Positions 31,329 to 33,101 of a DNA stretch of 33,101 bases are shown here, piece by piece (position 1 is the stretch's first letter; every line of letters starts with the position of its first letter). The notes below the pieces were generated by a model. That model was not told the DNA's origin, made no database searches, and saw nothing but the letters and a program-made list of their open reading frames with translations. Source of the stretch: an uncultured Rhodospirillales bacterium (GTDB lineage: Bacteria; Pseudomonadota; Alphaproteobacteria; Acetobacterales; Acetobacteraceae); the NCBI GenBank assembly GCA_903864895.1, contig CAIPHQ010000503.1, positions 1 to 33,101 of the forward strand. Reading direction: 5' to 3'. The position numbers were made by a program, and so were the translations under genes.

Positions 31329-32018
31329 ATGATCCATGATGCACCGATTCTGCGCGTACGCCGGGGCTTCCCCCGCCCCACGCCCGAAATTCTGGCCAAA
31401 TTTGCCGGCATTCCAGCCGGTTTCGTGGTGGACGCCATGGGCGGCAGCGGCTGCATGGATTACCGCATCAAGCCACTCACCCCGCCGGACGCGCCGATAC
31501 TGGGCGTGGCCATCACCTGCCACGCCGGGCCTTCGGACAATCTGGCGCTGTTCGGCGCACTGGAAGCGGCCAAGCCGGGCGATTTCATCATCGCCTGCAC
31601 CGAAGGCTTTCTGGGAGCAGCCATCACCGGCGACCTTGTGCTGGGCATGGCACGCAATCGCGGCGTGGTGGGCTTCGCCACCGATGGCGTGGTGCGCGAC
31701 ATCGTCGGCCTGCTGAATGTCGGCCTGCCCTGCTACAGCATGGGCGTCACCGCCAACTCCCCCGCCCGCAACGGCCCCGGCACGGCAGGCCTGCCGGTCA
31801 TCGTCGGCGGCGTGCGGGTGTGCAGCGGCGACATCATCATTGCCGACCGCGACGGCGTGGTGGTGGTGCCGCTGGAACAGGCCGAAGCCGTGCTGGTGGC
31901 GCTGGAAGCCGTGAAGGCTGCAGAAGCCAGCATGGAAGCGAAGGTCAAGGGCGGGCTGCAGGTGCCGGACCATTACCGCGCGCTACTGGCCTCCGGCCGG
32001 GTGGAAGAATTGCCCTGA
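31329..32018 (+). CDS. RraA-like / 4-carboxy-4-hydroxy-2-oxoadipate aldolase family protein
   Basis: A 229-residue protein of the RraA/HMG-aldolase fold. Signature pieces are IPAGFVVDAMGG, CHAGPSDNLALFGAL, GFATDGVVRDIVGL (the Arg-Asp pair of the metal/substrate site) and GDIIIADRDGVVVVP. Family members cleave oxo-acids such as 4-hydroxy-4-methyl-2-oxoglutarate, or inhibit RNase E. The longer type here, with its own C-terminal helix (about 190-229), fits the aldolase-like group better. The start at ATG 31329 has AAGGGGA upstream, 20 bp after the flavoprotein stop, so the two are co-transcribed. It is convergent with the gene at the right edge. Confidence 0.85.
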   Translation: MIHDAPILRVRRGFPRPTPEILAKFAGIPAGFVVDAMGGSGCMDYRIKPLTPPDAPILGVAITCHAGPSDNLALFGALEAAKPGDFIIACTEGFLGAAITGDLVLGMARNRGVVGFATDGVVRDIVGLLNVGLPCYSMGVTANSPARNGPGTAGLPVIVGGVRVCSGDIIIADRDGVVVVPLEQAEAVLVALEAVKAAEASMEAKVKGGLQVPDHYRALLASGRVEELP

Positions 32019-32038
32019 GGCGCCCCGGCGGCGCCGGG
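32019..32038. terminator. GC hairpin between convergent genes
   Basis: GGCGCC-CCGGC-GGCGCC (32019-32035), or alternatively CCCGGC-GGC-GCCGGG (32024-32038), can form a 6-bp GC stem. It directly follows the RraA-like stop and precedes the end of the convergent edge gene at 32049. There is no T-run, so it is a possible rather than established terminator. Confidence 0.4.
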
Positions 32039-32048
32039 CCGAAGTGGC

Positions 32049-33101
32049 TCAGCGCCGCCGGACCAGATCACGAATCGCGGCACTGGCCGCGTCGTCACCG
32101 CCCGCCATCTTTGCCACGCGCGACGCCGCGCGCCCGGCTTGCTGGGCGCGGTCAAAAATCTGCTCGGCCGATTGAATGCGCTGCTCGGCTTCAAGAATGA
32201 GCAAGAACTCGTGCGTACTCACCTCGACGATGCGTGTGCGATCCCGCACGACGATGCGCTTCAGCTCGGCGGGCGTCGGTGCTCGCTGTTCGTCGCGAAT
32301 TTCCGCCAGCGCCTCCAGCGCTGCACGGTTCCGCGCGAATCGAACCTTGGGCGTTCCGCCCGCTATGCGTTCGGGGTCATCAATGTGGAAATTTGGGCGA
32401 GATGGGGCCGGGACGGGCTCATGCTCTCGGGCTCCATCATCAGCCAGTCGCTCCTTGCCTCCGCCTCCGCGTCCCCCATCGGCATCCCCGCTTGGATGTA
32501 CTGGTTCTTCGCTTGGTAGCGTTTCCGATCGAGGACGAACGCCAGCTTCGCCGCCAGATTCTCCGCCATCAGTTTCTGGTACATGAGCGGGCGGTGGCGT
32601 TTCCAGAACTTCAGGATTTCCGTTTCCCTTGGACTCCCCGGAACCATCCCCTCCATCCGGTACTTCGCCGTCTCCGCCTCCACCCACCGGGTGAATTTCT
32701 GGTCCACTTTCCGCCTCCGCAAGCAACTTGTGCAGTTCGCTTTTGACCGTCTCCACGGCGTCCATATCGGACACATCAAGCCCGCGGTCATCCATCATAG
32801 CGTGAGCGCTCAGATACCACCCACGCAATTCTTGCCGCAATTCTTGGACGGTCACGCCAAGATCGGCGGCGATTGCCTTGGCAAACTGAGTGAATTTTCG
32901 CGCGCCGCGCTCAATGTGATAGACCGCCAACTCGGCGCCAATCATCATCAATTCTGGGTCAAGCCCAGAATTTAGCCGGGCTCGCAACTTCTCTTTGATT
33001 ACAGCCGACTCCTCGCACAACAGCACGCCGCGTTCATCACCAATCAGGCGGCCGGGCTCTTCAATCACTTCGACGGCGGCACGTTCGCCAAGGTTGGGCT
33101 C
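32049..33101 (-). CDS. Partial protein of unknown function, phage/plasmid-like, open to the right edge
   Basis: The frame is open from the edge (33101) to TGA 32049; an internal GTG at 33068 would give 339 residues. Numbering from that GTG, residues 40-110 (LAVYHIERGARKFTQFAKAIAADLG onward) resemble a segment that recurs in large phage, plasmid and island polyproteins. This is a memory-based, weak resemblance. Residues 121-236 are Gly/Pro/Glu-rich low complexity and coincide exactly with another gene in a different frame. Residues 237-339 are again ordinary: RFARNRAALEALAEIRDEQ and a helical, Ala/Arg-rich tail ending DLVRRR. Codon third positions are G/C-rich in both ends but not in the middle. 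It may be one long protein or two joined by chance. Confidence 0.5.
   Translation of the reverse strand, partial: EPNLGERAAVEVIEEPGRLIGDERGVLLCEESAVIKEKLRARLNSGLDPELMMIGAELAVYHIERGARKFTQFAKAIAADLGVTVQELRQELRGWYLSAHAMMDDRGLDVSDMDAVETVKSELHKLLAEAESGPEIHPVGGGGDGEVPDGGDGSGESKGNGNPEVLETPPPAHVPETDGGESGGEAGVRPRSETLPSEEPVHPSGDADGGRGGGGKERLADDGAREHEPVPAPSRPNFHIDDPERIAGGTPKVRFARNRAALEALAEIRDEQRAPTPAELKRIVVRDRTRIVEVSTHEFLLILEAEQRIQSAEQIFDRAQQAGRAASRVAKMAGGDDAASAAIRDLVRRR
32363..32707 (-). CDS. Nested 114-residue protein of unknown function
   Basis: This gene lies wholly inside the longer minus-strand frame, in a different reading phase. It starts at GTG 32707 with a perfect GGAGG at 32714-32718, 6 nt upstream, and ends at TAG 32363. 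The product begins MDQKFTRWVEAETAKYRMEG, continues with EILKFWKRHRPLMYQKL and LAFVLDRKRYQAKNQYIQAG, and then MGDAEAEARSDWLMMEPE. This is a balanced, helical, soluble composition. Third codon positions here are mostly G or C, whereas the enclosing frame over the same bases is A/T-rich at third positions and encodes Gly/Pro-rich filler. It looks more like the real coding frame of this stretch. I do not recognise the family with certainty; small phage- or transposon-encoded helical proteins are the nearest impression. Confidence 0.6.
   Translation of the reverse strand: MDQKFTRWVEAETAKYRMEGMVPGSPRETEILKFWKRHRPLMYQKLMAENLAAKLAFVLDRKRYQAKNQYIQAGMPMGDAEAEARSDWLMMEPESMSPSRPHLAQISTLMTPNA
32714..32718 (-). 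promoter_or_regulatory. Shine-Dalgarno site of the nested gene
   Basis: GGAGG on the minus strand, 6 nt before GTG 32707. It decides the start of the nested gene and is the main signal, beside codon use, that this frame is translated independently. Confidence 0.5.

Follow-up and report, generated by a model that had tools for sequence, protein, structure and literature searches.

A probable small gene nested in the +1 frame of DarB-like antirestriction genes of phages and plasmids, with a cut-out remnant at a contig end

Features at the contig end

The window analysed here, the whole stretch of 33,101 nucleotides, is the end of contig C503 in an assembly of 599 contigs. At its far end the minus strand carries a long outer open reading frame and, lying entirely within it in the +1 phase, a shorter inner frame (Table 1). 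An earlier note, made from the letters of this DNA, had described the inner frame as a well-formed gene wholly nested in another phase of the longer frame, with a GTG start behind a well-spaced GGAGG and G/C-rich third positions, and each of these points was borne out. The GC contents of inner codon positions 1, 2 and 3 in the window copy are 0.58, 0.42 and 0.83, which is a coding pattern. The note had also seen the outer frame turn into filler exactly across the overlap, and its translation there is indeed rich in Gly, Pro, Asp and Ala.

Table 1. Features of the window; all lie on the minus strand.
Feature	Position	Strand	Details
Outer open frame, chimera of interrupted gene and DarB-like fragment	32049..33101	minus	starts at GTG 33068 or upstream beyond the contig end
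In-frame insert of 735 bp	32266..33000	minus	LPD segment, overlapped linker and methylase-module start of a DarB-like polyvalent protein
Outer frame, LPD-type segment (LNSGLDPELMMIGAELAVYHIERGARKF...)	32709..33002	minus	also in the L031 DarB-like protein and in phages
Outer frame, methylase-module lead-in (HIDDPERIAGGTPKVRFARN...)	32253..32393	minus	truncated before GWG motif; profile E 5e-8
Interrupted gene, upstream flank	33001..33101	minus	identical to C515:298-398
Interrupted gene, downstream flank	32049..32265	minus	97% identity to C515:82-297
Inner (nested) gene	32363..32707	minus	GTG start at 32707, stop at 32363; 114 codons; predicted five-helix soluble protein
Shine-Dalgarno GGAGG of inner gene	32714..32718	minus	6-nt spacer before GTG 32707
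Overlap	32362..32709	minus	outer frame Gly/Pro/Asp-rich linker, inner frame coding

The balanced helical product of 114 residues anticipated for the inner frame is matched by an AlphaFold2 model with five helices, a mean pLDDT of 85.7 and most of the core above 90. Fold searches with this model returned no significant match among solved structures; the best solved fold (2apl) reached Z 5.6 over 63 residues, within the noise of helical bundles, and the top viral model (E 0.026) carries no name. The inner protein of the window has no family in Pfam, NCBIfam, PHROGs or PADLOC.

Contig C515 of the same assembly starts with the same sequence without window positions 32266-33000: its positions 1-297 match window 31968-32265 at 98%, and the match continues on the other side of the junction. 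The interrupted gene is also found without the insert in homologues from three related genera (G016, G059 and G028). Since C515 and the three relatives are uninterrupted, the 735 bp (245 codons) constitute an in-frame insert in a small gene. The earlier description of the outer frame outside the overlap as normal coding sequence needs correcting in one respect: this frame is not a single gene but a chimera with a DarB-like insert. The product of the interrupted gene (L016; C515, 6-665, minus strand) begins MTLSLKIFVVDTGPLITLALAE and looks PIN-type nuclease-like by eye; a Pfam search gave no match for it, and it matches the PADLOC candidate defence family PDC-S70. Differences between the window and C515 are confined to one side of the junction, where C515 also has a 1-base deletion. 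The pair with and without insert may reflect a strain mixture, an allelic insertion or an assembly error.

Within the insert, the outer frame aligns with a 2758-residue open frame of the viral contig L031 (E 4e-36), over the LPD segment, the linker and the start of the methylase module. The L031 protein belongs to the DarB-like antirestriction family by its match to phrog_10089 (E 1e-119), and an inner-protein homologue is encoded in L031 in matching position and phase. DarB-like proteins, found in phages and plasmids, form the methylase-helicase dyad of the polyvalent proteins (PMC5512222), with an outer architecture of LPD, linker, N6-adenine methylase and SNF2 helicase/translocase. The window's outer frame contains both the LPD segment and the methylase lead-in; it stops before the GWG motif, and the methylase and SNF2 helicase domains are absent. 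Elsewhere in the genome, neither the insert nor a methylase-helicase core was found again. The window copy is an orphan DarB-like gene fragment placed in frame within another gene at a contig end of a fragmented assembly, which makes its expression doubtful; the function of this particular copy is uncertain.

The nested frame in phages and plasmids

Related loci were gathered through the outer core, 78 of them viral and 13 from genomes, and phage and plasmid records were added. An HMM built on the inner protein detects a nested ORF in about 90 of the 101 outer loci, in frame +1 and immediately before the outer HIDDP...GGTPK motif. The tests described below used 79 distinct loci, the window included; L122, the exception to the +1 phase, whose detected outer piece lies in another frame, was excluded. 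The phase was +1 in all 79 and in a further 11 plasmid loci. On account of this constancy, one option raised in the earlier note, that two compensating frame slips link three pieces of one original protein, is rejected.

Carriers include Pseudomonas phage USP_18, Agrobacterium phage Atu_ph08 and Erwinia phage PEp14; in all three records only the large CDS is annotated. Burkholderia phage BcepIL02 has a divergent, unannotated +1 ORF with AAGGAGG inside its DarB-like gene (L039 2350-2670), and the ORF is also found in close relatives (phages BcepMigl, DC1, CSP3 and JC1). A strongly divergent subgroup (L068, L078, L083 and L096) shares a C-terminal EWLE motif at the same place and in the same phase. 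Bacterial copies were few in genome searches at family, class and phylum level; the only other one, G105, is a stand-alone inner homologue with the outer protein absent. No recognisable inner gene was found in the DarB-like or related loci L044, L087, L116, L120, L123 and L142-L144, of which L087 and L116 are possibly truncated, or matched in part only.

In phage PBC5 (L040 2060-2633) the LPD frame passes directly over to the inner one and the methylase picks up again in another frame, the two being annotated as separate ORFs. This frame change is probably a one-base indel or a sequencing error. It is the only case in which the inner frame runs on from the flanking outer frame, a pattern that the earlier note had named as a sign of simple frameshifts; it does so on one side and is absent in the relative Atu_ph08. 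Two A3 members hit phrog_938, a family that also matches the LPD part, and these hits probably arise through a fusion of the PBC5 type.

On plasmids of Pseudomonas, Stutzerimonas, Burkholderia, Xanthomonas, Paraburkholderia, Citrobacter and Methylovorus (11 loci, the Pseudomonadota plasmid set), a gene of about 101 codons lies in the +1 phase, with Shine-Dalgarno sequences such as AAGGAG. The helicase frame is open across the small gene, in most cases back to a conserved N-terminus. Protein identity in this set is 0.55 for the inner against 0.315 for the outer frame, and conservation is again highest at inner position 2, which is the outer wobble base (0.735). Over the nested stretch, P. juntendi pL4046hy and P. 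putida pMRSN365855_2 have 99.7% of bases alike; one of the two records annotates the small gene and a helicase that begins behind it, the other a single long helicase without the small gene. Such mutually exclusive RefSeq models stand on near-identical plasmid DNA (L038 and L154). A comparison of the plasmid and phage inner profiles (hhalign E 3.7e-4, probability 36%) is suggestive only; the plasmid HMM scores at least 4 bits on 52 of the 79 phage inner sequences, against 35 of 1580 residue-shuffled ones. The nested gene of the 11 Pseudomonadota plasmids is probably homologous to the phage inner gene.

Plasmids of Arthrobacter, Pseudarthrobacter and Microbacterium carry at the same spot and phase a small gene that is annotated as TnpV (PF14198) or matches it weakly. 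On three actinobacterial plasmids (L138, L139 and L140) the helicase frame is open upstream of the nested TnpV-like genes. The window's inner protein did not reach the TnpV gathering score. The nested ORF of L118 scores 33.4 bits against the Pfam cut-off of 27 and joins the inner family only at E ~1e-3, those of L117 and L042 match TnpV below threshold, and the profile comparison of the window's inner family with the actinobacterial set is weak. Homology of the phage, Pseudomonadota-plasmid and actinobacterial-plasmid sets is likely. For TnpV of Tn4451 itself, a role in excision has merely been postulated (PMC3158075), and no TnpV is listed for Campylobacter pTet.

Coding constraint on the two frames

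Constraint on both frames was assessed in the 79 loci by synonymous shuffling and by codon-position identities. The outer proteins were held fixed, their codons were shuffled synonymously and the inner frame was then scored with the profile. On average across loci, 24% of the shuffled versions retained an open inner frame (summed log10 -77). Real inner sequences scored a median of 108 bits against a shuffled median of 7.6 and a shuffled maximum of 51, and every real sequence outscored all of its own shuffles (79/79); as the profile was built from the tested sequences, these scores favour them, and the codon-position test is independent of the profile. In pairs at 60-70% nucleotide identity, the overlap showed identities of 0.620, 0.675 and 0.578 at inner positions 1, 2 and 3; conservation within the overlap was highest at the outer wobble base and lowest at the first base of the outer codon. 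The adjoining outer core without the overlap gave 0.718, 0.769 and 0.449 at positions 1, 2 and 3, its wobble being the least conserved position. The wobble reversal was seen in each of the identity bands between 0.5 and 0.999, in pairs that are not independent. At the protein level, identity over the overlap was 0.50 for the inner and 0.375 for the outer frame (pairs at 60-70% nucleotide identity). By these comparisons it is the inner frame that dominates coding in the overlap, and it is conserved far more strongly than the outer protein alone would require.

Long shadow frames are frequent in GC-rich DNA, and roughly a quarter of the shuffles leave the inner frame open, as would suit a chance open frame whose similarity between loci is imposed by the conserved outer protein. 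Such a frame would not explain why outer-preserving shuffles abolish the inner similarity in all 79 loci, why the outer wobble is the best conserved position of the overlap or why the G105 homologue exists apart from any outer protein; we regard this explanation, refuted by the shuffle and codon-position tests, as having next to no probability.

A Shine-Dalgarno sequence of at least 4 nt precedes the inner start in 82% of loci, against 42% after outer-synonymous shuffling; the start codon was picked partly by this sequence, so that start statistics lean towards it, and the shuffle control took the best one likewise. The start is ATG or GTG in 78 of the 79 loci. These starts bear on the proposal that the inner segment has no start of its own and is made by programmed +1 frameshifting, as an extension of the LPD part that precedes it. 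In its favour, the PBC5 LPD frame leads directly into the inner one, and the open stretch of the inner frame often begins some codons ahead of the start (median 16 codons). However, most loci have their own start with a Shine-Dalgarno sequence, the homologue in G105 stands alone, and PBC5 differs from its relative on one side only, as a single indel or sequencing error would; we consider an extension of this kind very improbable.

In the converse test, with the inner proteins fixed, the mean probability that the outer frame stays free of stops was 0.24 for a single locus (summed log10 -72); it is in fact open across the overlap in all 79 loci. Conservation of one frame alone, the outcome that would have spoken against overlapping genes, was thus not what was found: the inner frame is selected beyond the outer, and the outer is kept open at a low joint probability. 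Over the overlap, the outer translations of the 79 relatives contain on average 21% G, 10% D and 8% P, with W, F and Y nearly absent. This low complexity, a conservation below that of the inner frame and RefSeq models that start several plasmid helicases downstream of the small gene would fit an inner frame that is the only gene, with the LPD part and the methylase-helicase as separate units and the outer overlap as a GC-driven shadow that is never translated. The uniformly open outer frame argues against this arrangement, as do the conserved outer-frame N-terminus upstream of the plasmid small gene and the single continuous CDS annotated in several phage and some plasmid records, and we think it unlikely.

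Proposed mechanism and relation to known systems

Taken together, the sequence comparisons make it highly probable that the inner frame truly codes for a protein and forms a gene nested, in the +1 phase, within a much larger DarB-like antirestriction gene. The two other options of the earlier note, true overlapping coding and a linker imposed on the outer protein by the inner gene, would then be the same phenomenon seen from two sides, and the conserved phase and the tests on both frames bear them out. According to this model, internal initiation on the large mRNA would yield a helical protein of about 114 residues, and ribosomes on the large gene would read the overlap as a disordered, flexible tether joining the N-terminal domains to the methylase module; the linker would be of low complexity because the inner gene is read in the other frame. 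Each outer codon starts with the wobble base of an inner codon, so that outer stops would be removable by synonymous inner changes, and this cheap avoidance may explain why the phase is always +1.

The strict co-location of the small and large genes suggests, with low confidence, that the small protein could work with the methylase-translocase or regulate it, and be produced in a constant ratio to it. Relatives that stand alone or resemble TnpV suggest that the small gene came first and that the large gene was extended over it. A broader and more speculative reading is that DarB-like genes of phages and plasmids in several phyla commonly have two products, the large protein and a small TnpV-like +1 subunit acting with it at the entry of mobile DNA into a new cell, and that the linker of the large protein arose as the older small gene was read in the wrong phase.

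Long, deeply conserved nested genes are rare in prokaryotic systems, and the host gene class here is among the commonest antirestriction genes of mobile elements, on phages and conjugative plasmids alike. Mis-annotation of this conserved arrangement is widespread; the window holds a cut-out remnant of it. The nested gene accounts for the contradictory RefSeq gene models, in which databases lack the small gene in some cases and the beginning of the large one in others. It offers a clear example of a protein linker created by overprinting and draws attention to a small, unstudied protein that is directly testable in phages and plasmids. The overlap was not described in any paper found in a search of open-access text, and a word search of the 2017 survey of polyvalent proteins (PMC5512222) returned no mention of overlap or TnpV.

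Among known systems, the window's outer frame resembles DarB (phage P1 DarB, phrog_10089; Iyer et al. 2017, PMC5512222) in its LPD segment, linker region and methylase-module lead-in and differs from DarB-like proteins in lacking the enzymatic domains. The likeness of the inner gene to TnpV, small proteins of Tn4451-like elements, lies in L118 and in the actinobacterial genes at the same spot, whereas the window protein itself has no Pfam match and its family matches the actinobacterial set weakly. In the Rz/Rz1 arrangement, a small phage gene with its own start is embedded in a larger gene on the same strand in the +1 frame. The nested gene described here is of the same type, although the proteins differ, the DarB-like outer gene is a megagene and the DarB-like overlap also occurs on plasmids.
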